DNA from: Coleophoma eucalyptorum
Taxonomy: Eukaryota; Ascomycota; Leotiomycetes; Helotiales; Dermateaceae
Reading direction: 5' to 3'
Assembly (NCBI GenBank): GCA_026120035.1
Contig: JALRME010000029.1
Coordinates: 248,001 to 312,000 of the forward strand
DNA: 64,000 bases
Made by a program: the position numbers and the translations under genes. Shown here in pieces: positions 7,048 to 51,364 of the stretch. A model generated the notes under the pieces. That model saw nothing but the letters and a program-made list of their open reading frames with translations. It did no database searches and was not told the DNA's origin. Numbering within the stretch: the first letter of the stretch is position 1; every line of letters begins with the position of its first letter.

Positions 7048-7406
7048 GGTGATGAGCTCTGTGAGCTTCCTGGCGACCTTTGTCTGTATCTAGCTTCTAC
7101 GTAGTGTGGATGAAGGCGCATTAAGAGGAAAAGGTTGTGAATATAAGCTGAGCGTGATTTCCAAAACCAAGGGATTGGAAATATGCAGGTAATGGTTGGA
7201 TAAAGGGCTACAGCAGCATCGATCCAGTCTAACTAAGTAAAACAACGATACAAGCAGGCCACAGAAGCTGCTTCTCAGAGCCTTATCTCATGACAAGTAA
7301 ATACAAAAGGAAAGTAGTGAGTCCAGACCAGATCAAATAAACCCCGTCCGAAGGCAGGTTTGCTTCGTTTAAGCAAGTAGCCTGTTCTGTTGTGCCAGGA
7401 AGCGTA

Positions 7407-7853
7407 CTACTTCACCATCAACCCCTCTTCATACGAGAGGTCAGCCGTATCATCGGCAACAAATCCGACCATGCAGCCAGTCCCCTGCGTAGTGCATATT
7501 GGAATCGCATATTTTCCCATGCAGACCGACAAATTAGCATTCGTGATCGGCTTCAGCTCCTCATCTCCCGTGTTGAAAGTCCTTATCAGCTCCCCAGCTC
7601 TCTTCGCTGTCCCGTTCTCAAGAGGTTGGGGGAATAGTACGTATGGCCCCGCTCCTCCCCTCCCCCCCAAAGCTTGTGTTGCACTGTCGTCACGGTTTTC
7701 TTAAATGCCCTTGTCGTTTGTCTTGAATAGCTCAGCTGCTGCCGCAAGCTAAGCGATGGGGAATTTACTTGATGGGGATGCTCAGGGAATTCTGGGGCGA
7801 GAAGGCTAGAATTGACAGCAACGAGAATCAAACAGGTGGTGACTATTCGGCAT
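7407..7853 (-). pseudogene. Possible small secreted protein gene, apparently frameshifted
   Basis: Low-confidence call. On the minus strand an ATG at 7853-7851 is followed one base out of frame by a good signal-peptide core (RIVTTCLILVAVNSSLLA). A second open stretch of about 95 codons, ending at 7407, contains NANLSVCMGKYAIPICTTQG and has coding-like composition. I could not join the two parts with consensus splice sites and correct phase. Either the annotation needs unusual splicing, the gene has a one-base lesion next to its start codon, or this is chance. No family is recognised. Confidence 0.25.
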
Positions 7854-8061
7854 TTTTTTAATGACCGATCGCTCCATGGGTCTTATCTCTGTCATTTCTG
7901 GCTGAAATGCAGGTTTCTTCGGAACTGGGCGGGTTTACCAGCGAATTTCCTCCTGGCTGAACTGCTGAAATAGTAGCTCGAAATGGCTGAAACCACAATG
8001 GCATTAAAGTTGCTTGTGGCTGATTGATCTATATTCTGAAGTCCAACTTTTCAACGCATTC

Positions 8062-10125
8062 TCAGATGGCTTTCCTACCGAGCACACTCTCTAGAACAGT
8101 GCGCAACCTCTGTATCTCGTCACCAGAACTTGTGGCACGCCAAGCGATGAATCGATCCGGACGCACCAATATACAGCCATCTTCCTCAATGTTTCTAACG
8201 TTTTCCCAATCTCCGTAGACATCTTCCCAATCTTGCCGAAACCCAATACTAACAATATTGAGTCCAATATGAATTTCACTACCAAGCACATCCGCAGCTT
8301 CTTTCCAAGCCTGACCACCAATTCCTGTGAATATTGTCCAAGCGCCTTTCCCAGCCAAATCAATTGTAGATATAGGGGCTTGGTTAGGAACTGATTTATT
8401 TAGCCATGCATGTGGCAAGCGGCTCCCTGGGAAGGTATTTGGTGTGTAGTATAACACGGGATCTTCAGCCGCACGACCTTGAAATCCGAAGGCAACTTGC
8501 TCATCACGGGAATAGACGGCGGTACTTTCATAATGTTGATTCATTTCGATGCCAATGGCGTGAAACTCGTGTGCTGAATGTTCAATACCTTTCCTCAATT
8601 CAGATCGTCTCTTCTTTCCCGCTGATCCTTCGGCTGAGAGCTCTGCAAAGGCAGCTTTGCGCTCAGAAAGTGATGGGTAAAGCATTGCAAGTGCTGACCA
8701 GATCTGTAAGTGATTGCGGAAAGAGTCATTTGCTCGACTGATTATACCTAATCCTACGGGCTGGCGCTCTAGAGTATATGTATTTAGGATACGCGGAGAT
8801 GCTTTGTCTTGCAGAACATGCGCCACTTTCCATGCAAGGTTATAAGAATCTTGAATGCAAGTATTAGAGCCAAGCCCATTCATGGGTGGATGGCGATGTA
8901 CTGCATCTCCCAAACAAAATCTGTATGAATATGAGCATTTCCATTCTGAGACGAAGAGATAAATCATACACATTGCCTTTAGAATACTCCTTGGCCACAA
9001 TCTCATTAATATTCCATCTTGAAATCATCATGATCTCCGCAGGAGAATCATCTCCAATAAATTCTTTGATGCGTGACAAGTACTGCTCATTAGTCGCTTC
9101 TGCAACTGCCGTTGTCTTAATTGAAGGGAATAGGGAAAAGATCCATTCATTCCACGGCTTAACCATTCTCGCAACACCCATCATGCCAAAATCGGGATAG
9201 TCCTTGTCGGGCTGTAGTATCCAATGCAGATTTCCAGTGCGATGATTTACAAGATGCGAGAGATCAGCCTTGACGAGGACATCGATCGCAACTCCTCCAC
9301 CAGGCTTGGCATCGAGTTTAAGTCCAAGTTGTTTCACAATCTTACTTCGTGCCCCGTCTGCAGCCATAAGATATTTCGAACGGATCTTGTATATCGTGCC
9401 GGTCATTCTATCTTCAATAGTCGAGCTAACTCCCGTCTCATCTTGCTCGAAGCTCAAAAATTTGGTGTCCATTCGGCACTTGAATCCATTTTGAGAAGCA
9501 TACTTCAACAATATCGGCTCCATGAGTGTCTGTGGTAAATCAATATGTTTGCAAGGACTTGCTGCATCGTGATCCCCCTAATCTATTCAGTCCTGGTGCT
9601 TAAGATAAACAAAGCGTGTGCTCTGACCTTTCGCTTTGGATTGTTTCCCCAACTATATATCCTTGCATACTCTTCTCCAGCAAGGCTATGGCACCAACGC
9701 GTATGTGCCATTGTATCACCCTGCGAAGCAAGTTTGTTACACTCGACATCGAGACCAATATCTCTCAGACATTCTGGACATATCTTAGGGCAGCTTCACC
9801 AGACGTAGAGTTTGACTTACTTACCTAATGATGCTGGATTTGTGATATGCGCCCGTGGTGTATCGGCACTTGACGACGTAGCTCCTATCATAACCCCCTT
9901 GACACCTGTAATACCTCAGAATCACGTGAAGCAGCGCAAAGAATACGACGTACCATATGCAGCAAGAAAGCATGCGAGAGATGCCCCTGCAGGACCAGTC
10001 CCGACAATTAGAACATCTGTAGCTGCAAGACTAGGTTGAAACCCGGATGCGGGAGACTCAGTAGTTGAAGATACCAGCTCTGGCCCAGATGTCATTTTGT
10101 CTCGGACAAGCTCGGAAGCGATCAT
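8062..10125 (-). CDS. FAD-dependent aromatic-ring monooxygenase (TfdB/phenol hydroxylase type)
   Basis: Five exons on the complement: 10125-9954, 9905-9825, 9773-9628, 9577-8970, 8920-8062, giving 621 aa. Group A flavoprotein monooxygenases insert one oxygen atom into phenolic rings using NAD(P)H. Visible motifs are the Rossmann GxGxxG (VGTGPAG, 41-47), the DG motif (AADGARSK, around 207-208) and the FAD-ribityl GD motif (FCLGDAVHRHPP, G340-D341). TRWCHSLAGEEYARIYSWGN and GSNTCIQDSYNLAWK are typical of fungal 2,4-dichlorophenol 6-monooxygenase-like proteins. A thioredoxin-like C-terminal domain follows. Met1 or Met11 could be the start. It is transcribed divergently from the extradiol dioxygenase gene, with an 837 bp shared promoter. 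Hydroxylation of a phenol to a catechol that the neighbour then cleaves is an inference. Confidence 0.92.
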
Positions 10126-10962
10126 TTGAGGTTGAGTTGAGAATATCCAAGTGCCAGTAATTCAGGAGTCAAGGTTGTTTTCTTTCTAACCAAGCTTTAA
10201 TATTCAGACTTGCATCGACAATGACGATGATTTTCAGCAGTCACAGTATCTTGCATAGCATCCTGTAAGCTCGGGAGCATGCAATCTGAATCCCGACACA
10301 AAAACAACCTCGGCTGGTCAACAAGTGGGTATGGAAGCTCAAATATGATAGGAAATACCAACAAATGAGAAACGACGCAGCGAAGCCTCGATCTGAGAGT
10401 GATTTTGATGAAAGTCTTTATCGACGAAAGTCCGCAGGTGTGGTTTGTAGTTTAAAAGGTCTAGAATCCAATAGACGAGTGCGAATTTCCAATGGGCTCC
10501 ATGTCGACTTCATGCTGGGGCTGTTATACGTCCGTAAATCCGAAAATGAGGCCTCAAACTGGTCGTATTGTGGTCGGATGTATTTGATTCGGAAGGAGAC
10601 AGGTTCTGCTTGTGGAGAGCAATCCATTTGAGACAAGCTGGCGCTCTTGGGTACTTGTCTAGAATGCCCTGTACTGAGATGCTCGAAATCATGCAAGTCT
10701 ATGAACTACAACGCCTCTTTCTTTAGCCATCGGCGATGCACACTAATATCGGGGGCGTACTTCCCGATGCGTGGTACACATTCCTCATTCAACACGTGAT
10801 TAGAATCAACCCCTCCTGGATGGTTAGGTGGCAGGACAACATTGGCGCAGAAGCTGGTAACACGTAAGTCTGACAAAGTGAGGAGAAGTTAAGAATTCTC
10901 TACTACTTTTTGAAAAAGAGAAAAGAATCTGTTAAACAAGTTCTAGGACCAAAACGAGAATC
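10126..10962. promoter_or_regulatory. Bidirectional intergenic promoter region
   Basis: This 837 bp separates the divergent starts of the FAD monooxygenase and the extradiol dioxygenase and should hold both promoters. Open frames inside (10365-10631 plus, 10418-10696 minus) show no recognisable domain and overlap each other, so I leave them out. I identified no specific operator. Confidence 0.5.
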
Positions 10963-12253
10963 ATGGCTTCAGTATCCGAGCAGAAGATCAAGTTGGTCAA
11001 GCCAGCACATGTATACTACACCCATGTCGACCTCGAATCAGCTCATGCCTTCCTCCTAGATTTCGGATTTGCAGAAGAGAAACGAATCGGTTCCAAAATC
11101 TACTATCGAGGTTACGGTCCGGATCCATTCGTGTACTGTGCTACCCAAGGAGACAAAAACGAATTTGGAGGTGTCGCCTTTGTCGTTGAATCTGAAGATG
11201 ATCTGAAGCTAGCTAGCCAGACTATTCCCGGTGCTTCGGAAATTTATGAACTGAAAGATGCACCTGGTGGGGGAAAGGGTGTAACTTTTAAAGACCCTGT
11301 GGATGGGTTTCCTTTTCATCTTGTATGGGGCCAGAAAGAGAGGGCTGGCCAGAAGGAGGTTGATGAGAAGGATGAGCTTCCAAATGGAAATCCTTTGCAT
11401 TTGACATTTAACTACGTATGGTTCTGACAATCTGGAGACTTGAGAAGACGAGCTGACGAGTGCCTAGCCAGAAGACAAACAACGACTTGCTGGAAAGTTT
11501 CAAAGATTCAAGAAAGGTGAGCTGTCTCGCAACATTCTTTCACAGTATTTAACATTATAATTCAGCTCCTGCACCTGTGTATAAACTCGGCCACTTTGGC
11601 GTTTGTGTGACAAACTTCCAGAAGACTTTCGATTTCTATACATCACGTTTCAACTTTTACCCCAGTGATGTACGCCCAGATCTCTCAAGCTCACCACAAT
11701 TAATTTAGACCTCGTGCTAACTGCTTCTTTTTAACCAGCTTCTACATAAGCCTGGCTCCGAACAAGTCTTCAACGCCTTCTGTCGCTTAGATCGTGGAAG
11801 TGAATTAGTAGACCACCACTGCTTCTTTTTCTTCGAAGGCCCTAAGTATCATGTCCATCATTCGTCCTTCGAGACTCATGATTTCGATACCCAAGTCTTG
11901 GGACATGACTGGTTGAGGCACAAGGGATATGAAAACTGTTGGGGTGTGGGCAGACATATCATGGGCAGCCAAATTTTCGATTATTGGTAAGTTGGAATTA
12001 CGTCGGCTCAAGTGGGGCCGATGCATTTCATGGACCTGCTACTTATCCATATATGCGTGATAGGTTCGACCCTTCAAAGTTCATTCTGGAACACTACGTT
12101 GATGGTGATCTGGTTGATATTTCACACCCAACGCAGAAGAATGCTGCGTCACACGATGGAATCCATGTCTGGGGTAAGTCCCAGAGGCTTTGATAAATAG
12201 AAAAGTGCTAAAAGTCAGCAGGACCCGATCTTCCAGCAGGGTTCTTGGATTAA
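10963..12253 (+). CDS. Extradiol ring-cleavage dioxygenase (VOC superfamily)
   Basis: Six exons: 10963-11415, 11468-11516, 11566-11669, 11739-11986, 12064-12173, 12222-12253, giving 331 aa. It has the two-module vicinal-oxygen-chelate fold of catechol 2,3-dioxygenase-like enzymes, which use Fe(II) to open an aromatic diol beside its hydroxyls. The N-terminal module starts at about residue 11 (VKPAHVYYTHVDLESA). The C-terminal module carries the predicted metal ligands His178 (KLGHFGV), His243 or His244 (HVHHSSFE) and Glu295 (FILEHY). All three ligands are present, so activity is likely. Frame is kept across all five introns, and the last coding exon is only 32 nt. It is divergent from the FAD monooxygenase and convergent with the NAT gene. 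Confidence 0.9.
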
Positions 12254-12383
12254 AAGAAGTTTTGGCTTCAAATTTATCGACCTGGATGCTCTTGTAATTT
12301 TCATTTCTTATTTGATTTAACTGACACGGATTTAAAAGTGTAGTACTAATTGGATTTCAATTTGTTATAATTTCTATCAAAAT

Positions 12384-13404
12384 CTAAAGCTCCGTGATCA
12401 AACCGTGAATACCCCGCTGTTCTGTCAAGCTTAGCTTCACACCCAAGAATTCGTCCAGGGCCTTGATTCTCTCTTTCTCACTATCACACATAGCAAGAAG
12501 CTCAGACTTTCCTTTAACACGCTTCTTAACCTCAGGCCCAAAAAGCGTGATGTCACCGACAATCTCACCATCCTCAAGGACCATCTTGACACATACGATT
12601 TTTGTTGTAAACCAACTCGATCGATGCGTACTCGTAAAGTGATTCATGACCATGAAATCACTCGGTGTGAATTCCATCTCGCTAAAGGCGTAAGTAGGCG
12701 TCCAAGGTTGGTCAGCAGCATTCCGATGCTGATATTGCCAGAGCTTTCGGTCTGATTTAGTAAAATCCGGGATAGTGTCATAGATTAGTTGTATCTCCTG
12801 CGAGCCTACATTTATCGAGATCTCATTCTCAATTAGAGGTAGAGGAAAGGTAGGTCCGCTTGAGCCAAATCCTACGTCGAGCACGTATTTCTTGCCGTCA
12901 ATATATACGATGTTTAACATATGGTTCCTATAACAATCAGCGGCGAGTACTACTGATTTAGAATCATTATAACACGAACCACCCATCAAATTTGGGGCCC
13001 TTCCAATGTTTATTTGCAGCCATAGGTTGAACCGCTTCATTGACCTTGGCGCCAATGTTCACAATGTCATAACCGAGACTTCTCAAGATGGTTCCAAAGA
13101 AACAACTGTTTTCCATGCAATAGCCACCTCGGCCAGCATTGCGCTCGACAATCTTGTGAAAGAGATGCTGTGGGTCAAGGGAGATGGTATGATGTGAAGA
13201 GTAGTGCAGCTCGAGATTCTCGAAGGGTACTGAGGCTAATTGATGTCGCTGGAGCACGCTGAGGAATTCCAACCCCTCCTTCGTGTTAGCGATGGAGGAT
13301 ACATCGATCTCGCGAGCTTTCGAGGGGAGGTTTATATATGTATAGTACTGTTTGATCTGCTCAGGAGTATAGGTCTGACGTTCAGCAGGATTGAAGACAC
13401 CCAT
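12384..13404 (-). CDS. Arylamine N-acetyltransferase (NAT)
   Basis: Two exons on the complement: 13404-12980 and 12927-12384, giving 322 aa. NATs transfer an acyl group from acetyl-CoA (malonyl-CoA in some Fusarium enzymes) to aromatic amines and hydrazines. The catalytic triad is visible: Cys96 in RGGYCMENS, His144 in NHMLNIV, Asp159 in VLDVGFG. The exon join restores the conserved FDGWNHM stretch, but its donor is a non-consensus GTTCGT. Met at 13404 is chosen because it fits the family start (MGVFNPAERQ); a hydrophobic in-frame extension upstream to 13488 would add 28 residues. In Fusarium, NAT homologues sit in loci that detoxify benzoxazolinone via 2-aminophenol. Its place beside phenol-oxidising enzymes suggests a comparable role here. 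Confidence 0.92.
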
Positions 13405-14216
13405 AGTGATTGTAGTTGATGACGATACTGTGATACGATACTGTAATACGATAATGCACGCAAATACAAACGTGGAATATATGATCACGTGTAAACAACA
13501 GTGGTACCCTCTCCACCCTGCTTACGAACTATTATCGGAAAGAACTTTCCGAAGATCTTCTGCTGTACAATTTCTCAATTACAATAGTAAGAAGGGTTAA
13601 AAGCGGGTTTTGAAGTGTTCAACACTTTCACCTCAAGTTGCGCTCTCTGGTGTCTATCCGATATATTGCGGCCTCAAATCTCAACTAGGGACCCTTGCTG
13701 CACGATTCACGTAGACATTCCAGCCCTGGGATTTCTTAGTGCCAGATCGAGACTTGGGTTTGATATCGTTGTTGGACAGACCCCTCCCTTTGCGACAGCT
13801 GCAATGCAACTGATAAGATACTCTATTGTGCAGCGGAGGAGAGGACAGGGCAGGTATTTCGAGACAAATAGAAGCAATGAGCAGTGCTGCATACAAGGCC
13901 TCCTTACTACCGTGGTCCTCTTCCTTACCCCATGTTATTCTTCAATGCTTGCAGCAAGCATGTGGGAGTGGGAAGGGCGGGGGGATATTGGACCAAGCTT
14001 TCTGGTTTGTTCAAGCTTCGCCTAGCTCTAATGACTTTCTTCGGTCAACAAGAACATTGTATGTTGGCTTGATCGCCTTCGCTTTGTTGTATCGAAAGCG
14101 GCTGGAAGGCCCATCTTGTGTAGAGTAAAGCTCTCAGAATTGCTACATTATCACCTTCAAATCACCACATTTGTCAGCCATTTATTCATTTCAAATTATT
14201 GAATTCAATTTCAAAT
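13405..14216. promoter_or_regulatory. Bidirectional promoter region, NAT and permease
   Basis: About 810 bp between the divergent starts of the NAT gene and the permease gene. A TGATAA (GATA-type) hexamer occurs at 13811-13816, but one such site is weak evidence for nitrogen control. Open frames in the interval show no recognisable protein. Confidence 0.45.
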
Positions 14217-16085
14217 ATGGCAAAAGACGGAGAGCTAGGGGTTGAATCGACAGCCCACGCTGGTGTTGTCGTTGATAGCGAGAAGGCAGCTCTTTCTGAT
14301 CAAGATGTCACTGATTTGGCAGGCGTAGGGAAAAGACAACAATTGGGAGTTAGCAATGCAATTTGCTTAGAAAGAACACTGGCAGTTTAACTAACTCTGA
14401 ATAGAGAAGATTCGGATTCTGGTCGATGTTAGGGTTTACAACAACGATGATGTGCACCTGGGAGGCAGTTCTCTTGTACGTAGACTGCCACTTTGCAGGC
14501 ACGCTATGAGGACATCGCTGATTTAAGAAGTGCAAATCTGACAGGTCTCGTCGATGGGGCTGGCCCAACTCTGATCTATGGCTTTATATTCTCCTGGATT
14601 GGATCTCTTGCGACAGCAGCCTCACTGGCCGAATTGGCTTCAATGTAAGTCCAAGAACATAACTTTCAAGAATAAAGATGGGCGAAGGCTTATATTGAGC
14701 GAAAGGGCACCAACATCTGGTGGTCAATACCACTGGGTTGCAATCCTTGCACCACCTAAATACTCAGCCCTTTTGAGTTGGATTACAGGATGGATAGCGA
14801 CAATCGGCTGGAATGCCAATACAGCAGCCGGAGCGTTCTTCGGTGCGACGATGATTCAAGGACTGCTGGTACTCAACTATCCTGATTATGGTTATGAGCG
14901 ATGGCATGGGACACTCTTAATGTATGCAATTATGTTGATGGTCGTGGCAGTCAATACCATCGCAGTCCGTCTACTGCCCAAAATTGAAGGAGCAATGTTG
15001 GCAGTGCACGTCGTTGGATTCTTCGCAATCCTCATTCCGCTTGTCAGGCTCGCGCCCCATGGATCGCCCTCATCAGTATTTGGCGAGTTTGCCAATCTGG
15101 GGGGATTCAAGAGCAATGGTTTAGCTTGGTTTATTGGTCTGATAAGTACAAATTTGCCATTTGTTGGTTATGATGGGCCTTGTCATATGGGTAAGTCAAC
15201 CTTCTGCGAAGCAAGATATGAAAAAATACTAAAGTAGACTCAACAGCCGAAGAAGTTCAAAATGCATCTCGCATCGTCCCTAAAGCCATGGTCGGTACGC
15301 TACTCTTAAACGGCGTGCTTGGTTTCTCCATGGCCATAGCATTCCTCTTCTGCATCGGCGATATCGATACAGCCATCTCCTCACCGACCGGTTACGATTT
15401 CATCCAAGTTTTCTACGGCGCCACAGATTCTAATGCAGGGACATCTGTCATGACGGCTATTCTGATTGTGCTTGTAACCTTTGCCACGTTCGGCTTCCTC
15501 GCTTCTTCCTCGAGACAGACCTGGGCTTTCGCGCGTGATCAGGGATTGCCATATTCGAACTTTTTGTCCAAGGTATACCCATTTCTGCATCTGTACGGCG
15601 ATGATTATTTGACTGACTGAATTATACAGGTCAATAAAAGTCTTGAACTTCCCCTAAACTCGATCCTCATCTGCACGACTTTCACGGCTCTTATCTGTCT
15701 AATTAATATTGGCAGCACTGTAGCATTCAATGCCATCGTCTCCCTCACAATCGCCGGGTTATTCATCTCCTATATGATCGCCATCTCTTTGCTAGTATCC
15801 AAAAGACTCAAAAATGCACCAGTGCATTGGGGACCTTGGAGACTGGGCAAATTTGGGTTAGCAATCAACCTGTATTCTCTTGCTTACCTACTCATCTCGG
15901 TCTTCTTCTCTTTCTTCCCGCCCGAACTACCTGTTACAACAGTCAATATGAACTGGAGTTGTGCAGTTTTTGGTGGTGCGGTTATTTTGGGATTTTGCTG
16001 GTATGCTCTTATTGGTAGGAAACAGTACGATGGTCCAATTATTGAGATCGATCTCCTAGCTGGTGGGGAGCCCGATGCGGCTTGA
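14217..16085 (+). CDS. APC-family amino-acid/GABA/choline-type permease
   Basis: Six exons: 14217-14348, 14405-14475, 14528-14644, 14706-15190, 15247-15572, 15630-16085, giving 528 aa. A multi-spanning plasma-membrane transporter of the amino acid-polyamine-organocation superfamily, with a hydrophilic N-terminus and about 12 hydrophobic segments. Family signatures include RRFGFWSMLGFTTTMMCTWE (TM1), MAPTSGGQYHWVAILAPPKY and AEEVQNASRIVPKAM. The third exon needs acceptor AG 14526-14527; an AG further upstream leads straight into a stop codon. The closest style is the fungal GABA/choline permease group, but the substrate is unknown. It lies divergent from the NAT gene. It could import the amine or amino compound handled by the neighbouring enzymes, which is an inference. 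Confidence 0.9.
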
Positions 16086-40450: not shown

Positions 40451-41360
40451 ATGCCCACTACCAAGAACTTCGGCACGGAAAGTGCTGCAAATAAAGCAAT
40501 TGGGGGAGTTCCTACAGTTCATTACTTCGATTTTCAGTCTCGAGGACGAGGTCAAGTTGTCCGACTTTTGCTTATTGTAAGATACTCCTTGAGTTTCTAG
40601 CAGAGGAGAAAGGATGATGAAAAGAAGGACGAGTTAGAGTTAAGCGTGTCTTGGTTGAATATCCTGACAGTAAACTACAGGATGCCGGTGCCGCATACAA
40701 AGATGTTCGATACTCGTTCGGTGAATGGCCCGAACATAAGGGTACGATTACTAAGATCAACCCCGCTGGTAACATCCCGATGGTAGAGATGCCTAATGGG
40801 AAGATCCTGACTCAGAGCTATGCGATCTTGAGGCATTGGAGCAGGTTGCTTGGTGCATATGGTGGAAATACTGAGGAAGAGAAGTATTTTGCTGATGTAA
40901 TTTGTGATATTGTTGTTGATTGTGAGTTATCCGGTTTGATTCATCCTGTTTGCTTCATCCTACATACTTCTTAAACGTGGGAGTAGTGGTGACATGAGCG
41001 ACTAATGCACCGTACTGACCAATTCACTATTCAGGGCGGACATTATTTCTTGCAGCATTCTTCTCTGTGAACAAAGAGGAGGATTACCCGAAGCACAAGA
41101 GTGGAAAGCGGAAGCATTTCCTTGGTGCTATAGAGGCACATCTAAATGCCAGTGATCTCTCACGCCGTGGTCCATTTATCATTGGCAAAGAGATAACCTA
41201 TGCTGACTTGGCTCTATTCCAAATACTGCATGATGAGGAACTGACTAGAGATGGAAAGAAGGAGTTGCAGAATTATCCGAGGTTGACTCAATTAGCGATT
41301 GCGGTTGAAGATCGACCGAACGTTAAGGCGTTCTTAGCGAGTGATGATTACCTTGGCTAA
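40451..41360 (+). CDS. Glutathione S-transferase
   Basis: Three exons: 40451-40576, 40681-40921, 41035-41360, giving 230 aa. The N-terminal thioredoxin-like domain begins at VPTVHYFDFQSRGRGQVVRL. INPAGNIPMVEMPNGKILTQSYAILRH contains the cis-proline (NIPMVEM) and the gamma-glutamyl-binding QS pair. The helical C-terminal domain includes FIIGKEITYADLALFQIL, the N-capping/hydrophobic staple region. The pattern fits the sigma-like/prostaglandin-D-synthase-like group. Tyr25 in HYFDF is the candidate catalytic residue. It lies 0.8 kb from the peptide cluster. GSTs can add thiols in secondary metabolism, but nothing in the sequence proves membership. Confidence 0.9.
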
Positions 41361-42136
41361 AGGAGACTTGGGCGATGCCTGTGCCAGTTCTTTCTGAAGC
41401 ATTGATGATTAGCTAACAATCTTTACTACCTTAAAAATGCGTCAATGGGCAATCGAAGAAGTTAAAGAATCCTAATCCCAAATTTCCTCAAGTGTGGGCC
41501 ATAAAAGTGTTTGATCTCAAAGACCCAGAGAGATATCGAGTTGAAATGGCTCACTTGATCATTGACCCAGATATCAACATGCTCTGGATAAACAGGACCT
41601 CTGGCAGATATATCTCTCTCGCTGACTGGAAGATATAGTCTTGTCTATTACGTGTTTGGATGAGAACCAAGCACTTTCCAAATTCTCGCTTAATTTAATT
41701 TTCAACTAACTTACACGATCCTAAATAAACACAGTTGGCATGCATTCCTCTATTTGAAAGAAAGAAACAATTCGTCTTAATTGGAATTGTACAAAGGAGC
41801 TATATTCGAGTTTATAAGTGTGCTGCTATAAGCAACTAAGGATGGGAGACCGTGAATACCATCTCTAATATTTACAAGTTGTGCTTGAGACTCAAACCCT
41901 GATGGATTTCAAACAATTACCACCTTTATTCAAAAGCTTGGACACACAGGTAGTAGTCTCATATATTTTACTTCTTTTCATTGACTACTTCTAGTTTTCA
42001 TATCTGCTACTATGGTTTACGAAGGCTACATATATTACGCTTAAAATAGATTAACTTGACTTCATAGCCCACAATATACTCACGTTTTCCTTCCTATTTA
42101 AACTGAAATAGAAGCATATGAGCCATTGTTACCTTG
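41361..42136. other. Intergenic with an orphan coding fragment
   Basis: About 780 bp between the GST gene and the end of the first UstYa-like gene. Apart from the short coding-like stretch at 41441-41639, listed separately, I see no gene. The remainder is AT-rich. Confidence 0.45.
41441..41639 (+). pseudogene. Orphan exon or gene fragment
   Basis: About 65 codons remain open and end at a TAG (41637-41639). The amino-acid pattern is protein-like: VWAIKVFDLKDPERYRVEMA, then HLIIDPDINMLWINRTSGRY. There is no in-frame ATG at its beginning and an upstream TAA closes the frame. A branch-like CTAAC at about 41413 and AG dinucleotides near 41458 could mark an acceptor, but no matching upstream exon was found. 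It may be the truncated 3' end of a lost gene. The family is not recognised. Confidence 0.35.
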
Positions 42137-43136
42137 TTAATTCTTGTCTTCGGCTTGTCTTGCAAGCTCACTCTCCTTTGGGCGACTGTACATCTCCTCA
42201 GGAGGTGGCCCTTTTGGCCATTTGATGCTTTCCACTTCTCTTCCAAGGGCCCATTCCCTAATCTTTTCGAAGTTGCGACAAGTATGTGGCTCGGTCTCTT
42301 GTGGTAGTGGTATTCCGCGTTCTGGCTCATAGTCCCAATATACTGCTGCAATATCGCTGTGGCACATTATTGATAGCCGCAACGACTCAATACAGTGGTC
42401 TGGACCCATTCAGTTAATTGAGATACTAGCAGCAGAATGCCTAAATTTACCATAATGATGTGCTTGGCCACTTGTATAGTTCCGTTCACCATCGCTGCCA
42501 ATCCAGTCAAAGAAATGGCCTTCATAGCGCTGAGGCCAGAGTGTTTTCCTAAGTGTATTCAAGCAATGCAGTTGATGAAAGACGTCCAATTCCATGAGGT
42601 ATTTGTTCTCTTCCCCTGGAACGGAAATAGTTCTGTTTGGGATCTTCGCTGCCTCTTCGGGGGTAATCCAGTTCAAATTGCCAACTACAATGAATCAGCA
42701 CTGATATTGCATGAGGTGGAATAATCGATCTTACAGTGATAGAGCTGATTCCACATTATGTCAGTGATATCGTCGGGGATACCATCATGTTCCCGACCCA
42801 TATAAACACTTTTCTCCCACATGCTTTCTGGGAAGGTAACTGTTTCATATTCCACGAGTTCTTGTGCAGGTGCTAATTGCAATCAGCCTATAGCCACCGG
42901 TGCTCTTAAAGTTATCACTCACAGTAGAAATCACCTATGCTTGGGTCTTTGCAGACTTGTTTCCTCAGTGCCAAGTATAGAGAGACTAAAGTTTGGATAC
43001 CGATGATGGTGTAAAGCACCAGAAAATGAATTTTGGAACTATAAGCTTTAGGCTTCGGGAAATGATACGGACTCGATGCTTCGCTCGACTCTCGCTCTGG
43101 GAGGAGTCTATCATTCTGTGATTTTTCGATATCCAT
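42137..43136 (-). CDS. UstYa/DUF3328 family oxidase-like protein (first of four)
   Basis: Four exons on the complement: 43136-42923, 42872-42735, 42684-42451, 42399-42137, giving 282 aa. UstYa-type proteins are membrane-anchored fungal enzymes that install oxidative cross-links, hydroxylations or chlorinations during dikaritin and cyclochlorotine-type synthesis. One membrane helix lies at about residues 36-57 (FLVLYTIIGIQTLVSLYLA). The first metal-type motif is HQLHC in ELDVFHQLHCLNTLRKTLW, and the second HHYGDHCIESLR, joined across the last intron. A Cys-Arg-Asn-Phe stretch (HTCRNFEKIREWA) closes the domain. It is transcribed away from the cluster centre. The substrate is unknown; the nearby precursor gene is the obvious candidate. 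Confidence 0.9.
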
Positions 43137-43706
43137 GTTGTAACTGGAAAAGGAACTCCAAAAGTGAAAGCTTCAATTTCTATCCACGATGAAGGAAAAT
43201 TCACAAAGAACTAGATGAAAAAGAAGAGGTAGAAGTCTCGTGCCAGTTTCAGCACAGCCAGATTATGCCCGGTTGAATTGCTATTCGCACTGTCCGCACC
43301 CAACCGACGTGTCGCTGCTGTTGCTTACTGTGCAGATTTATCTGCCGATGATCCACAGAAACCATCTTTGTAAGCGAGTATATCTTACATTAGTTTCATA
43401 CTTTGATGGATGATCAAGTTCAGCTGAAGAGTTCGGCGCGGTCAGCCTACTTTACCTATCCATCCCAATACCCGAGCTTGTTTGATATAATTGGCTACTG
43501 AGATCTGCAATGTAACGTGATAGCAATGTAAGCTTTATGGAGCATAACCATGGATCGGACGAGCATCTCCAGGGATCCAGTCGTTATGTTCGGCTGTTGG
43601 AAGGCAGTTCATCATTTAAACAACAAATCAAGTATTCACAATCCTCAGCGATCATAACCCTCTCAGAGCTAATCAACTAAATAATTCTCGTATATGCAAC
43701 TTTGTT
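43137..43706. other. Intergenic within the peptide cluster
   Basis: About 570 bp upstream of the first UstYa-like gene and downstream of the second, both on the minus strand. No gene seen. Confidence 0.5.
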
Positions 43707-44568
43707 TCACATATGCTGATGACCATGGTCCTCAGTTGCGTTATTGTACCGATTCTCCTCCGTCCACGCTAGTAACCTATCATAGTCACGGCAGACATGA
43801 TTTCCATGCCATCCTAGGCTCGAATGAGAATTTCTATCCTCATTATAGGTAGTTGGATCGAGCGTGGGATCTGCAGAACATCTAACCGCTTGCCTCAAGT
43901 ACTCCAAACAATGAAATGCATGATCCTTCTCAAAGTCCGTAAGTTGTGGGGCATCCGTCAACGCCACTGTAAGGAACTTTTGCACAAGGTACTGTTTTCC
44001 TAATTAGGACGCTCGCCTAGAAAGCTTATCATTCAGAACTCACAAGGCAGTGGTATTGGTGAAATGCTGATACTGCATATACTTTTGATTTGTCGACTTC
44101 ATCCACTTTTACAAATCCTCGTCCTTCTATGAGAAAGTTAGAACAGGTCTTTCAGTTGCGGGAAAGGTGTCTGACTCACTTGGGAAGCCTTCTGCCCATG
44201 CTGATTGTAGTTGCTCTTTGGATCCTTTAATGAACCTCTCTTCAGGCGCAAAACGAATAATAATATTGGGAACTAACTTCATATTAGACCACTCCATTCT
44301 GGAAACAGTATAACTTACATTCTGGTGCTGTTAGAGTTGTGGGGGTACCAATAGTATGGACCAGTGCAGATTTCCGTGAATCAGCAATCAAAGTGACAAG
44401 TGCAAGTGATAATATCACACAAGCCGTACCCAAGGACCAAGCCAGTTTTCTGAGCCGGGAAATTTGATGTGCCACTGAAGAAGAAATCGAATCTTCAGTT
44501 AGTTCATCCAATGGTGCGTAGGAAACTTTCGAGATGCTGGTAAGAGTTCTCAGCATGCGTGGAAACAT
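43707..44568 (-). CDS. UstYa/DUF3328 family oxidase-like protein (second of four)
   Basis: Four exons on the complement: 44568-44319, 44272-44180, 44126-44044, 43991-43707, giving 236 aa. A membrane helix sits at about residues 43-62 (AWSLGTACVILSLALVTLIA). The linker contains APEERFIKGSKEQLQSAW and GRGFVKVDE. The paired motifs are HQYHC (before the last intron) and HAFHC in KDHAFHCLEYLRQAVRCSAD. WHGNHVCRDYDRLLAWTEEN ends the domain. This copy differs most from the other three and ends in a His-rich tail (EDHGHQHM). The second exon needs the acceptor TTAG at 44274-44273, because other AGs upset the phase. Its start lies 472 bp from that of the divergent precursor gene. Confidence 0.85.
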
Positions 44569-45040
44569 TTTCGATGAGCATAGGTATTTTACTACTACCC
44601 CTAATTTCTGTGTGAGAAGTATTATACAATAAATAAAGACCCTCAACACCTGTGCCTTGAATAGGTAGGTGGTACGACTCCGGCTTTGGCTATCGGGGGT
44701 AATTCCTGTCGACAATGCAAACCTAGAAGATGAGGAACTTGCATGTCTATGCACTATGCACATAATCAATGATTCTTTCACATATTACGCGCTATGCTTG
44801 TGGCTGACTCATTGCTAGCGTGTGTGAACCTGCGTGTGATACCTTAAGTCCGTAGTTGCTAATTTATGGCTTTGTGAGAGTTCAGCTGACATGATGTGTG
44901 GAATAAGCCTGTTATCCGTCTAGCACCTATGAAGCATGCTGTCGAACTCTTCAAGATATATTTGAGATAGTATCCGTTTACTCAGATTCTCTCACCTTAA
45001 TTGAAATCAAGTACTAGGAAGATTCAACGTACTACAAAGC
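44569..45040. promoter_or_regulatory. Central divergent promoter of the peptide cluster
   Basis: 472 bp between the starts of the second UstYa-like gene (minus) and the precursor gene (plus). It is the symmetry axis of the cluster and should carry both promoters. A leader-like stretch precedes the precursor ATG. I could not identify a shared operator by eye. Confidence 0.5.
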
Positions 45041-45381
45041 ATGAAGTTTTCTATTCTCGCAGCTGCTTTGGCAGTATTCTCAGCCCACGCCGTTCTTGCT
45101 GCTCCTACTCCCCGGCCAGATACCAATGCAGCTGCTCCTGTCGAGAAGAGACAATACAAGGACGATTCCTTCCTCTACTTTGAGGACTATGAGGAGTGTA
45201 AGTGCTTTCATTGCGCAGACAAGAAATATCCTCACAGTAAACAGCATCCAAGAAAGAGAAGAGACAATACAAAGACGACTCATTCCTTTATTTCGAGGAT
45301 TATGAAGAATGTGAGTGAAAGCACCTCCCGCTCAGTATGAAAATTGCCAACTATTGTGTAGCATCCAAGAAAGAAAAGTGA
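45041..45381 (+). CDS. RiPP precursor with Kex2-type repeats (dikaritin-like)
   Basis: Three exons: 45041-45197, 45245-45310, 45362-45381, giving 80 aa. Residues 1-20 are a signal peptide (MKFSILAAALAVFSAHAVLA), followed by a pro-region of about 17 residues ending Lys-Arg. Two identical 22-residue units follow. Each begins Gln-Tyr-Lys-Asp-Asp, is rich in aromatic (two Phe and three Tyr) and acidic residues, and ends in a Lys-Lys-Glu-Lys spacer. The first unit closes with Arg, making a Kex2 Lys-Arg site; the second ends at the stop codon just where that Arg should be. This is the layout of ustiloxin, phomopsin, asperipin and epichloecyclin precursors. The middle exon (66 nt, phase 1-1) is exactly one repeat unit. 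Four UstYa-like genes surround it. Without splicing the frame runs on for other sequence to 45340. The product is not known and its toxicity cannot be inferred. Confidence 0.85.
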
Positions 45382-45405
45382 TCGTACAAGAATGATACTT
45401 GAGGT
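45379..45405 (+). repeat. Decayed third copy of the precursor repeat
   Basis: Immediately after the spacer in the last exon, the Arg codon of the Kex2 site is replaced by TGA. The following bases still line up with the start of the repeat unit (Tyr and Lys codons in register) before a second stop. This is read as a former third unit that has lost its function. Confidence 0.5.
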
Positions 45406-46120
45406 TTACGAGCCCAGAGAGTCTTTTGTCTAGATTTAACGATTGTACTTATTGAAAGGACCTTCCAGCCTCTGGAAAGAAGTGATTCTTCAGAAATGCA
45501 ATATTGTGGAAAAGACGGTTTCTGGCGTTCTCGTTCTTAGTTAGATCAGAAATGCAATTTTGGCACCTTATAAATCAAATGAATTTAAGAAATACTTAGA
45601 ATATTGTGAATTTGTAGAAAACCTGCTTAACTCGTCTTGCCACAGAGTAGACTTGAAACTCCTCGGTACAAAGTTCACATAGTATTCCTTTTCTTAAGTT
45701 ATTGGCTAGTAAGGGTTTAGAATCATTCGACTAAACCCGGAAGTTGCTGTCGGTTATTAAATTTTACATAGTAACTAGTTTATATCGTCAAAATAGAGTT
45801 ATCGAACTGACTGGACAGGTTTACTTGCGGCTGACCATGCCCGATGAAAGGCTAATGCCGGATATTCCAAGGTTGTCAAATACCATGTCAGGAATGCACA
45901 GCAACTAAAGCTTATTTAGGCGGTGAAAATATTGCTCAGCCCATTCGCAAAACTTATTAAGCTTCTGGTCATGGTAACTGCAGACTAGTAATGACAGCGC
46001 ATACACGAGTGTCGATCTATATAACCATCCTAGGCTGATTGCAGTTCCAGAGACACAGTTTTATCTGATATCCAAACGGTCCCTCATTTCGAATCGGTAT
46101 TTTTATTCTCAAACCCTAAA
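45382..46120. other. Intergenic within the peptide cluster
   Basis: About 740 bp of AT-rich sequence between the precursor gene and the third UstYa-like gene. No further core repeats were found by eye, and no gene is recognised. Confidence 0.5.
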
Positions 46121-47093
46121 ATGTCGAATAAACATGAGGAAGAGCCTTTCCTCCCTAACGATGATATTGCGACAGAAACTCACCGTAGTCGATATGTTGG
46201 CTTTCCATGGATTCTTCACATTGCTCTTTTCTTTACTTACACTTCAGCGTTCATTTATTTCAGCAAAGAGCTCATTTCAACGAGAACATGTACTAATGAA
46301 ATGAGCGCGTGGTGTACGTGCTCTTGTATGTCTCCATTTTCAGCGCCCTGACTGAGTTCAAGCTCCGCTACTGCATATTATAAAGTACAAAACAACAAAA
46401 TTCAATGGTTCTTTTGAATCAAAATCCGAATGGAAGAGTACACCTTCACCTGAAGTAGATGTCGCTTGGAAAGAGATAACTGGAGGTCTGCATATTGACT
46501 TTTGTAGCCCAGTAGACCCCATGCGTTAACGATAAATAGTTGAGACCGTGAGCGCCAACATTCACGAACCGGAAATACTGAAGCTTCAGAAGTCTGCAGA
46601 CGCAGCAAAAACCCCAGATGGAGATTATCTCGTAGGAGTTGAGGTGGTCCATCAATTGCATTGTCTTGTGAGCAACCTTAACCTTCATTTGCGCTGTCAT
46701 TCGGTCCTCACAGTTACCAGGATATGTTGCGAAGATGGACATATCCCGAATACTATGGCAATACAGGAATGTTCCAACATAAAGATCTTCTCCGAAAACA
46801 TACAGGTTCTTCTATTTGCCTTATAATTGAAGATGGTATCACAGTACTAACGGGGACTAGATCACTGTATAGATATGCTTCGTCAAAATCTGATTTGTAA
46901 TAGTGACGTTTCGCTCGTCACTCACAATTGGGTGAGAGGATTTGATATGCCCCAGCCAGATTTCAACGTTGTACATAAATGTAGGAATTTCGATGAGATT
47001 TTGAGATATGTGAAAGAGCACTCTAGGAATTGGACCCGGAGCGATTTTGCGACGAAACCTGATGGAATTGTAGAATTGGATCATTTGCCATAA
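46121..47093 (+). CDS. UstYa/DUF3328 family oxidase-like protein (third of four)
   Basis: Five exons: 46121-46313, 46363-46485, 46540-46667, 46721-46805, 46861-47093, giving 253 aa. One membrane helix at residues 27-47 (PWILHIALFFTYTSAFIYF) follows a short acidic cytosolic end. The join to exon 2 restores the family stretch SPLLHIIKYKTTKF. HQLHC lies in VGVEVVHQLHCL, just before an intron, and DHCIDMLRQNLICNSD follows the last intron. A closing KCRNFDEILRY completes the domain. Two donors (GTCTGC at 46486, GTTCTT at 46806) are weak but are supported by frame and family sequence. It is transcribed away from the cluster centre, on the same strand as the precursor gene. Confidence 0.87.
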
Positions 47094-47483
47094 CAGAAGT
47101 TATTGGCTGATAAGAGGCAGATAACTCCTTGAAGAATCTTACACGAGCAAGCATTGAGATCTATGTATAATAGTTAAATTCAAGAGTGGCTGAGTGTGAG
47201 TCTGGGGGTATGAACGAATACGCTCTCAGAAACTCGGTAGCCAAAATGATGTCAAACTTCAAAGCACGCGTTAAAATTCCTGTAAGACAGCGAATTACAG
47301 CTAGAAATGGGTAATTTTCCTGCACATGGATTATGTGATCTTGATCTCTCGCACGAAGAGCTATTTAACCCTTGACCACCCCCACTCGCTCTCAAGTCTT
47401 GCTTAAAATCAACAAAAAAGGAGGGGCGAGAACACTCTTTGATCGTCAGCAAAACAAGCGAGACTTATCGCCACCATCTGACC
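47094..47483. other. Intergenic, promoter of the fourth UstYa-like gene
   Basis: 390 bp. A short pyrimidine-rich stretch sits at 47370-47400, just before the gene. Nothing else seen. Confidence 0.5.
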
Positions 47484-48555
47484 ATGTTTGAATTCTGGAA
47501 GACTAGAAATTTCGAGTATGGTGAAATCAGAGGACAAAATGACGATGAGGAATCTACAAAGAACTTTTCTAGTCAAAATCTGAATACTTGCCAGGGTGTA
47601 CATTCGGATGAAGGGCTCCGTACTCGCGAACTGGTCTGGATTGTAGCGACTTGCATTCTTGCTGCTGTTTCAGTAACGCTGAGCTATCAGCTATGGTCAC
47701 GGTCGAAACAACCAAATTACGAGAACGGGTTTACTACAGATCTCCGTAGGTCTGCATCATAAAGAATATTGATTTCCGAACTGACTTCCCCGGCACAGAA
47801 GCAGCAAAATCCTCAATCAAATTGATCGATCTTCAGTTTTCGGGGGGCCTGATGATTCACCAAAATGGCTCTTGGTTTCGAGAAATCGACGAATCAAAGC
47901 AACAATATGTTGGTGAGCCGCGGAAAGAACTGGACGATGCTTGGAATGAATTGCTTGCAGGTATGAACATCGATCTACCTGCGAATGAAGCAGGAAAAGT
48001 GAGAGATGAGACATGGAAATGGCCAGGGACGGATTTGTACTTCACTGGGTATATCACTCACAAATGTCTATTCGAAGATAAATACTGACCCAAAAGTGTA
48101 AATGTTTTTCATAGCTTGCATTGTCTAGTAAGAATTCCTTGGCTATAAATTTCACTGGAAGCTGACTTGGACATAAGAATATGGTCCGCAAAGCCCTCTC
48201 GCCAGAATATTACGTCTGGCCGAGCCAGAGTCCCGGCGCCGAAGCATTTGCTAAGATGCATATCGGTAACCATACAAACCTAGCTAATGGCTCAGTCTAA
48301 ACACTAACTTCACATTTAAAAGAGCACTGCATTGATTTTATTCGACAGTCAATTCAATGTTCGGCAGATATGAGCCCCATGCTTTGGTTTTGGTCGCCAG
48401 ATCATAATAATCCTATCCTTAAACCAGATACTATTCATACGTGTCGTGATTGGGATGCTCTCCATGAATGGGCAAAAGAAAGGGAGATCGATCCTGAAGT
48501 GAAAAAGAAGTTCGTTGGAAAGGCATCAAAGAATCAAGATGCTGTCAAGGGATAG
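47484..48555 (+). CDS. UstYa/DUF3328 family oxidase-like protein (fourth of four)
   Basis: Five exons: 47484-47745, 47799-48048, 48097-48127, 48178-48265, 48323-48555, giving 287 aa. The N-terminal cytosolic part (about 48 residues) is acidic; a membrane helix follows (about 49-70, ELVWIVATCILAAVSVTLSY). The HSLHC motif lies in the 31-nt third exon (VNVFHSLHCL). The fourth exon reads NMVRKALSPEYYVWP, and EHCIDFIRQSIQCSADMSPM spans the last junction. HTCRDWDALHEWAKE ends the domain. Note HSLHC instead of HQLHC. The gene is followed, 178 bp on, by the end of the housekeeping end-joining factor gene, which marks the right border of the cluster. Confidence 0.88.
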
Positions 48556-48733: not shown

Positions 48734-50641
48734 TCAAAACCTTCTCTTCTTTTTCGCTGGAGCCTTCATAGCTTTCTCTTCAAGTTCTCGTTTTAATTCA
48801 ATCCTTTTTCTATCTGCTCTCTCCTCCGAAGTCTCTCTGGGCGGTGGGGTGACATCCTTCACCTTACTCCTCCCTCTATCTGCAATATCTTGCTCTCCAT
48901 CGGAAACAGGACTAAGGGACTTCTTTCTCAAGCCGCCTAATTTTCGTAATGGCTCATCACTCTTGGTGGCATTGTCGAGTGGTGCTGATTTGCGTTGAAG
49001 ACTGCCAAGGTTCGGCTTTGGATCTTCTACTCCATCCTCTACTACAGATGAGATATGTTTTCGGAGACCACCAAGCTTTTTAGTTGCAGCTCTTGCTGGT
49101 AACCTAGTTTCATTCACAGCATCGGCTTCATCTGAGGATTTAGCCTCCTTCTTAAGACCGCCAAGCTTACCTTTAACTTTCTTTGCAGGAGGTTCCTTTG
49201 GTGGCGGTGAAGATTCATCTTCTGACTCTGTCTCAGATTGTGGCACTCTAGGAGCACCGGTCTTTGGTGGTTGTGGTGGTGGCGCAGACTTTTTTGAGGA
49301 ATTTGTAGATATGTTGGGAGGCTCGTCGTCAGACTCTGTGCTTTGATCCTTGTCTTCTGGCTCCGTCAATTCAGCCTCAGCCTCATTGGGGGTTTTCTGT
49401 ACCAACGAAATATCGCCGTAGCGATCCATACTTTGCTGTTTAATAGCTGGATATTTTTCAGATGCAGATGGCTTTGAGCGGTGTTCCGATTCCCCTTCAG
49501 TTTCTGTATCTTCATCTTCAAAAGGATTTGCACCCCGGCGTCGAGGTGGAGGCCGTTTACGGAGACCAACTTTGACTTGCTTTGGCTTGGAAGCTGGTGA
49601 AGGAGGATTTGGAAAACTGTCAGGAACTGTTTGTGATGGAACGTCCAAGTCGTCGTCATCGCTAGATTCCAGTATTTGAGCTATAGCGCTAGCCCTAGAG
49701 AACTTCCCCGGAGGTGTAGCCTGAACTTGAAAGTCGTCAATGTCATCATTTGCCTTCTGCTCAGCAGATCTTGAAGTAGTGACTGCAGATTTCGAAGCTG
49801 GGCTATTCAGAGCGGCTTCCTTCACGCTCACCTGGAACGAAGTAGAGTCTCCAGACCACCAATTCTTCACCAAAGTGAGACTCGCCTCCTTAACTGTTGA
49901 CGATTTGGGCGGAGAATAGTCTTCGAACACATCAACTACTAGCGAGTTCATATCCGTTATAGTGCCAAGGGAAGCTCCCTTCTTCCAGCTGCCGGCATCA
50001 AAAGGTGCCAAGCCCTTGACTCTATCCTCTGCCCATGCTCTCGTGTTCTTTCTGCCACTCTTTCCAGCAGCTCCAGGAAACACCTGACCCAGATCAGCCC
50101 CCTGGGCCTCCAACTTGTCCACCAATTTCTGTATTACATGGTCTTTCTCCCTCAAGATCTCTAGAAGGCTAGCTTTCTCATTTTTTAGTTTTTGTTGTGC
50201 CTCGATAATAGGTAAAAGTAGTTGGCTAGTGAGACTGTGTTGCGGCATGCATGATAGCATGATTGGCCATTCCAGGGTTCCCAAGCCCTCCATTTCTGCA
50301 GTAATACGCAAAGAAAGTGCAGGTGCACCATGTTGAATACCGCCGTCGGCAACCGTGAGGGTTAGCGTGGTTCCATCTTTCCCATCAATCGCCCCTTTAA
50401 CTCTCTGCAGGAACGGCTGCAGGTTCTCATCTTCACCTTCATCTTCTAGCTCAATAATAGTCCCTTCGTCTCGAGTGCGACAGGCAATGGCACGTCGAGA
50501 GAGTGACTCGCCCCAAATGTAAGTCAAATCGGTCAGTAGGACATTGTACGATGTAGACAAGAACTCAGTCGATATGAGAAGTGCGGGCAAGGTACTCTTG
50601 TCGAAACGTGGGGGAAATAATGGTCGCCACGTCAAAGTCAT
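48734..50641 (-). CDS. XLF/Nej1-type non-homologous end-joining factor
   Basis: Single exon, 635 aa from the ATG at 50641; the frame is open further upstream but has only a TTG. The N-terminal XLF domain (WRPLFPPRFDKSTLPALLIS..., IWGESLSRRAIACRTRDEG) and the helical stalk that follows pair with XRCC4/Lif1 in DNA end joining in the nucleus. The long C-terminal part is disordered, acidic-basic mixed and Pro-rich. It carries four copies of an L-G-[GS]-L-[RKQ] motif (around residues 490, 521, 543, 567) and an earlier KVGLRKRPPPRRR. The extreme C-terminus KKKRRF resembles the Ku-binding motif of vertebrate XLF (basic run then a terminal aromatic). The repeats could be further protein-binding sites. 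It is unrelated to the peptide cluster. Confidence 0.85.
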   Translation of the reverse strand: MTLTWRPLFPPRFDKSTLPALLISTEFLSTSYNVLLTDLTYIWGESLSRRAIACRTRDEGTIIELEDEGEDENLQPFLQRVKGAIDGKDGTTLTLTVADGGIQHGAPALSLRITAEMEGLGTLEWPIMLSCMPQHSLTSQLLLPIIEAQQKLKNEKASLLEILREKDHVIQKLVDKLEAQGADLGQVFPGAAGKSGRKNTRAWAEDRVKGLAPFDAGSWKKGASLGTITDMNSLVVDVFEDYSPPKSSTVKEASLTLVKNWWSGDSTSFQVSVKEAALNSPASKSAVTTSRSAEQKANDDIDDFQVQATPPGKFSRASAIAQILESSDDDDLDVPSQTVPDSFPNPPSPASKPKQVKVGLRKRPPPRRRGANPFEDEDTETEGESEHRSKPSASEKYPAIKQQSMDRYGDISLVQKTPNEAEAELTEPEDKDQSTESDDEPPNISTNSSKKSAPPPQPPKTGAPRVPQSETESEDESSPPPKEPPAKKVKGKLGGLKKEAKSSDEADAVNETRLPARAATKKLGGLRKHISSVVEDGVEDPKPNLGSLQRKSAPLDNATKSDEPLRKLGGLRKKSLSPVSDGEQDIADRGRSKVKDVTPPPRETSEERADRKRIELKRELEEKAMKAPAKKKRRF

Positions 50642-51364
50642 CGTGAGCTGGTTTCCGTGGGGGTGATTCTCAGGAAGGCAGAGAAATTGTACACTTTTTA
50701 AGTGACACTGCAGCTTCGCCAGAGACGGGGAATGCGGAAGTAAATAGCCAAAGGCTTTGGTGGGAAGTAATGTTGGTCTCAAGTCGCAATTCTTGCCTCA
50801 GAATACGAGGAAGGCTGTCATCCTTTTACAACATTAAGTCGTGCAACAGAAGCAGGGGGGCTGAAGTAAAGTAGCTAGTATGAAACGGTCCACGGCGTAA
50901 GTAGTCTATAACAACGCACATGGTAGTTTCTGCTTAGTCGAGTGCCACCGATCATGTACCTTCATGATGTACATGAGGTATGAAGAGAGGAAGATTACCA
51001 GGCTACCATCCGTGCTAAGAGAACAAGGATTACGACCTTACTGTCATAATATCACGTGATTTAACGAATAGTTAACTACAAGGCTAGTACTGCTCGTAGC
51101 GACATGCTTGTTCCACTCAAGATTATGACACACACTAAGAATGAAGTAGTAGTTAGACTGATCAGCTCGGCATGTTAAAATGCCATCTCGACATGGACTT
51201 GACAGCTAGCATCGAGTAAAGTATCCGAACATGAATCTAAATTACCAGCCCGGACATGGTACCATACATGCCATACATATATCGCTTGTAAATGCTCCAA
51301 AGTCCTTACCGTTTCGCCGGGATATATATATCGCCTGCCCGAGGGCACCCAAGCAACGCCGTGA
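50642..51364. other. Intergenic
   Basis: About 720 bp between the end-joining gene start and the F-box gene end, both on the minus strand. It includes the XLF promoter. No gene seen; minor open frames are antisense to the next gene. Confidence 0.5.

Follow-up and report, generated by a model that had tools for sequence, protein, structure and literature searches.

The stretch of DNA analysed here (hereafter the window) comprises 64,000 nucleotides (nt) of the fungus Coleophoma eucalyptorum, from assembly GCA_026120035.1, contig JALRME010000029.1; it corresponds to C23:248001-312000 in our numbering of the 101 contigs of the 45.26-Mb genome. At window positions 42137-48555, which are the outermost ends of the two outer genes A and D, a small gene for a putative secreted repeat precursor is flanked directly by four genes of the UstYa (DUF3328) family, two per side and all pointing outward. 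An earlier note, made from the letters alone, had described this arrangement, and our gene models agree with it.

The precursor gene and its four UstYa neighbors

In the splice model, the precursor gene (45041..45381, plus strand) consists of exons 45041-45197, 45245-45310, and 45362-45381, whose joined product, MKFSILAAALAVFSAHAVLAAPTPRPDTNAAAPVEKR-QYKDDSFLYFEDYEESSKKEKR-QYKDDSFLYFEDYEESSKKEK, would be 80 amino acids (aa) long. Its N terminus is signal-like, with a hydropathy maximum of 2.08 at residue 3; here and below, signal peptides and membrane helices were judged from hydropathy alone, with a 19-residue maximum and a threshold of 1.6 for helices. The spliced product holds the two identical Kex2-bounded units that had been noted, of the form KR-QYKDDSFLYFEDYEESSKKE(K), each with two Phe and three Tyr residues. 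KR stands ahead of each unit, at residues 36-37 and 58-59, and behind the second unit a stop takes the place of the trailing KR. The computed linear masses are 2549.1122 Da for QYKDDSFLYFEDYEESSKKE, 1989.8156 Da for QYKDDSFLYFEDYEE, and 995.4276 Da for FLYFEDY.

Two features absent from the earlier note are that each unit has its own predicted exon and that a further unit may once have followed. Both predicted introns are of the GT..AG type, and each interrupts the Ser codon that follows EDYEE, one base in. Intron 1 (45198..45244, plus strand; 47 nt, phase 1, GTAAGT..AAACAG) lies inside unit 1 between EDYEE and SSKKEKR, and intron 2 (45311..45361, plus strand; 51 nt, phase 1, GTGAGT..GTGTAG) lies at the equivalent site in unit 2. 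Exon 2 is 66 nt long and symmetric (phase 1-1), and the unit length is 22 aa. In the unspliced DNA, the units are 113 nt apart and in different frames, so they would be joined only through splicing. Under the strict setting (8/10 or better), a scan for KR- or RR-led repeats found this pair at the locus and no other in the window, and 20 mononucleotide shuffles gave none; the loose setting (6/10) added one other pair in the window, near its start (~42/107). Directly behind the stop, the stretch at 45382..45402 (plus strand) matches unit 1 at 13/21 nt and unit 2 at 11/21 nt, after which similarity falls to 4-5/18. This is modest evidence (P of ~0.001 for the better of the two matches) for a decayed, partial third unit.

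All four neighboring genes exceed the 25-bit cutoff for the Pfam UstYa profile (PF11807), and each has the pair of HxxHC-type motifs attributed to it. On the minus strand, gene A (42137..43136; exons 42923-43136, 42735-42872, 42451-42684, and 42137-42399) encodes 282 aa with HQLHC and HYDHC and scores 142.6 bits; gene B (43707..44568; exons 44319-44568, 44180-44272, 44044-44126, and 43707-43991) encodes 236 aa with HQYHC and HAFHC and scores 66.3 bits, matching only the C-terminal half of the profile (positions 122-220). On the plus strand, both with five exons, are gene C (46121..47093; 253 aa, HQLHC and HTDHC, 187 bits) and gene D (47484..48555; 287 aa, HSLHC and HIEHC, 154.8 bits). In gene D, the acceptor at 48096 yields HSLHC, while the alternative acceptor loses the first His of that motif. 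The single membrane helix that had been assigned to each protein holds for A, B, and D, with hydropathy maxima above 1.6; gene C reaches only 1.38, and its helix is likely but weaker than the others.

Of the 16 invariant columns in an alignment of A to D, some belong to the two HxxHC motifs and others to an H-x-C-R farther along. Because identity to gene A is low (17% for B, 24% for C, and 26% for D) and the four lie on separate branches of a tree of 23 C-terminal fragments (at most 64 residues, hence of low resolution), they look like different enzymes rather than recent copies. Gene C had no match among Protein Data Bank sequences, and of its two pattern matches among IMG/VR contigs, none was confirmed as a relative. 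Across the genome, PF11807 gave 47 matches, which merge into ~37 gene pieces at 27 loci. The window locus is the densest of the 27, with the most genes within 6.4 kb; four genes in such a span have a Poisson probability of ~3e-11, as calculated from the ~37 merged matches, these four included.

Selection on the peptide and the case for a dikaritin-like cluster

In an 18-codon comparison of the two units, nine positions differ, and all nine differences are silent. Under random substitution, the chance of an all-silent outcome would be 2.3e-8, 3.2e-7, or 2.4e-6 for transition weights of 1, 2, and 4, respectively. The two introns, compared between their splice sites, are no more alike than shuffled sequences (120/200 shuffles score as high). 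Since the unit differences are all silent while the introns are unalike, the simplest reading is that the precursor peptide itself is under selection; gene conversion would also have equalized silent sites, and selection is therefore the reading that we prefer. The introns appear to have been copied along with the unit, given their shared place and phase but not their sequence.

In total, the precursor anatomy, the four adjoining UstYa genes, and the silent-only divergence of the units make it very probable that the locus is a minimal dikaritin-like cluster for a ribosomally synthesized and posttranslationally modified peptide, which upholds the interpretation first offered for it. In the broad sense, the class-defining enzyme of dikaritins is a UstYa/DUF3328 protein (PMC12048977). 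All four genes at the locus encode such a protein with two HxxHC motifs, the precursor (secreted, as judged by hydropathy only) carries repeated cores bounded by dibasic sites, and UstYa-type genes adjoin it on both sides. A narrower, five-gene definition, which PMC12048977 cites from Ding et al., includes a tyrosinase, for which no match on the contig was listed. As no methyltransferase, transporter, or peptidase was recognized in the models and frames scanned at the locus either, we place it under the broad definition only.

We propose a mechanism in which the precursor enters the secretory pathway and a general kexin, encoded outside the cluster, cuts behind KR to release QYKDDSFLYFEDYEESSKKE-type units. 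C-terminal trimming and formation of pyroglutamate at the leading Gln may follow. The UstYa oxidases, four membrane-anchored enzymes from different lineages, would cross-link the aromatic middle, FLYFEDY, between its acidic flanks and perhaps also desaturate or hydroxylate this part, and the finished peptide, whatever its role may be, would be secreted. Part of this scheme has precedent. UstYa-type proteins are required for cyclization of ustiloxin, asperipin-2a, and phomopsin (PMC7329392), homologues perform desaturation in the phomopsin pathway (PMC10512285), Kex2-type cutting is established for the same three peptides (PMC7329392; PMC6514808), and Tyr is enriched in Kex2 repeats near UstYa-type proteins (PMC7329392). 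The cluster itself encodes no kexin; the genome has a kexin P-domain at one place, C23:152624-152935 (two matches), ~137 kb from the cluster.

Several observations weigh against this reading. The precursor has only two units and the decayed third, below the average of about five (PMC10512285). The four upstream regions compared share no 8-mer and a single 7-mer, TAGCCAA (shuffle mean, 0.21), and thus give no clear signal of coregulation. The genome has at least 28 tyrosinase matches, none of them on C23 among the matches listed. At 40.6-50.8 kb, none of the scanned gene models and long frames was recognized as a methyltransferase, peptidase, or transporter; the Pfam scan of the window covered 35 of its 60 long open frames and the five gene models, and genes made of short exons only could escape it.

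Could the units instead be released by Kex2 and secreted unmodified, as signaling, pheromone-like, or surface peptides, with the UstYa genes acting on some other substrate? Among 7,878 Kex2-repeat proteins surveyed, 6,120 have no UstYa-type neighbor (PMC7329392), and modification of the window units is something that we infer. Against this, UstYa genes adjoin the precursor on both sides, four of them in 6.4 kb, each unit has three Tyr residues, and no other substrate gene is seen within the cluster; we regard this alternative as unlikely. Still less probable is a cluster in decay whose product is no longer made. The partial unit behind the stop, and the fact that just two units remain, would fit such a history, but the differences between those units are all silent, splicing leaves all four UstYa frames open, and the motifs are intact. 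That the gene encodes a short repeat protein with a structural or surface role, uncut at KR, is scarcely credible: having two units only would suit it, while the KR at the equivalent place before both units, the length of only 80 aa, and the UstYa context all weigh against it.

As a dikaritin-like cluster, the locus joins a known kind, since many fungi have UstYa-linked Kex2-repeat clusters: in the survey, which spans 1,461 strains, 1,758 of the 7,878 Kex2-repeat proteins have a UstYa-type neighbor (average, 3.09 genes; PMC7329392), and Venturia inaequalis has nine dikaritin clusters (PMC9632046). Kex2-repeat proteins in general (KEPs) share with the window precursor a signal peptide, tandem units, and dibasic sites but mostly lack the UstYa-type neighbor. 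Close to the window locus stands asperipin-2a, whose cluster is described as aprA, aprY, aprT, and aprR, with core FYYTGY and no tyrosinase (PMC6514808); like the window locus, it is small and sets a Kex2-repeat precursor with a Tyr- and Phe-rich core beside a UstYa homologue. It differs in having one UstYa homologue rather than four, FYYTGY rather than FLYFEDY-containing units, and a transporter and a reductase, neither of which is seen at the window locus. The composition of FLYFEDY recalls FYYTGY by analogy only. Ustiloxin and phomopsin clusters, unlike the window locus, have a tyrosinase and many more tailoring genes, and their cores are of the Y-[VAI]-I type. They resemble it in combining a secreted multicore KR precursor with several UstYa-type proteins (two and five, respectively; PMC7329392), although UstA releases 16 peptides (PMC6514808) and the window precursor would release two. 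Epichloecyclins (gigA) come from few, long units (27 aa versus 22 aa) with a UstYa-like cyclase and a similarly compact cluster of four genes; that cluster, unlike ours, includes a kexin gene, and the cores differ (PMC7317419, PMC8982410). The predicted core of the window precursor appears to differ from published ones, as compared with those named in the papers cited here. By 2022, products had been reported for just five dikaritins (PMC10512285); one short precursor with four unlike UstYa oxidases would be a simple system for assigning roles to UstYa enzymes.

One unit per predicted exon

The exon-per-unit layout of the precursor is less expected than the cluster itself. We surveyed the DNA around 26 of the 27 UstYa loci (all but C8:346253; for many, only ~1.5 kb on each side) and found Kex2-repeat precursors at four, namely, the window locus and loci on contigs C43, C7, and C101. 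The C43 precursor (L034 8403-9432), ~3.3 kb from a UstYa match, has a signal-like start, and each unit is its own predicted phase-1 exon of 60-63 nt, separated by introns of 48-53 nt. Its acceptor sites were chosen between alternatives, a choice decided by the last unit, ending IYVLPGVEGDSSESK, where the other acceptor is absent. Seven cores are visible around an N gap: IYIGAG, IYVVAG, and five IYVLPG. The intron interrupts the unit at SFDG^IYVLPG in C43 and at EDYEE^SSKKEKR in the window gene, and with positions so different, a common origin is not required. On C7 (L011; L045 ~3610-4120, minus strand), DPEFSNYGEYSVTAKSKR units spaced 54 nt apart run contiguously between two UstYa genes, with four visible around an N gap. 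The C101 precursor (L050 5371-5777), ~1.5 kb from a UstYa match, also has contiguous units, of 84 nt or 28 aa, with two Cys residues (DNFGRCIKEREASPEPAELYGCASNTKR). Going by predicted splicing, two of the four precursors thus have one exon per unit. Three sets of repeats raised by the loose scan were rejected by eye: those in L017 belong to the XLF frame, those in L037 form a long 99-nt array, and the 78-nt repeat of L040 has a stop in its frame.

We put forward, tentatively and at somewhat less than even likelihood, the idea that some UstYa-linked precursors of this fungus are exon modular, each unit being a symmetric phase-1 exon with a 47- to 53-nt intron behind it. Under this reading, exon duplication could add, remove, and vary units, and a unit could be skipped in frame. 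Repeat searches confined to single open frames would miss such precursors and gene callers would predict them badly, and hidden precursors of this kind may account for some of the UstYa clusters in which no precursor is apparent. Were the layout widespread, tools that mine genomes by way of unbroken repeats or annotated proteins would need to change. The words intron and exon are absent from the main text of two Kex2-repeat surveys (PMC7329392, PMC6339444), and we found no report of a one-unit-per-exon precursor among the papers that our searches listed, which did not include the first descriptions of gigA and phomopsin or the Aspergillus survey.

Two of the other UstYa loci deserve mention. 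Beside the C43 precursor, we noticed by eye a gene at L034 6046-6780 with one hydrophobic stretch, the motifs HDEHC and HSKHC, and no PF11807 match, perhaps a divergent UstYa-like protein. At C11:328085-331181 (L033), a tyrosinase match has two UstYa matches next to it, an arrangement known from clusters of the ustiloxin type, and one of the two falls together with window gene B in the fragment tree. No repeat precursor was found in 9.9 kb at this locus, where a search for open frames with a signal peptide gave one repeat-less match.

Borders and neighboring genes

The flanking glutathione S-transferase (GST) and end-joining genes named in the earlier note were both recovered as Pfam domains. 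On the left are GST pieces (GST_N and GST_C_3; 40621..41357, plus strand), likely outside the cluster, and farther left are importin-11-like, GH31, and AAA genes. A 67-aa open stretch at 41435-41638 lies in the AT-rich dip that separates the GST gene from UstYa gene A. On the right is an XLF-type end-joining protein (48737..50797, minus strand), a 687-aa open frame with matches to PF09302 (66.7 bits) and PF21928 (61.6 bits). Beyond it lie genes for a cNMP-binding/F-box protein and cactin and, farther right, a forkhead gene. Neighbors of these types, together with the UstYa genes and the short introns, are in keeping with a filamentous ascomycete.

At 5402-16082, pieces of a P450, an FAD-dependent ring hydroxylase (FAD-monooxygenase), an arylamine N-acetyltransferase, and an amino acid permease stand close together. 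Because they are at least 26 kb away, behind unrelated genes, we exclude them from the UstYa cluster; they may form a cluster of their own, for catabolism or for a metabolite.

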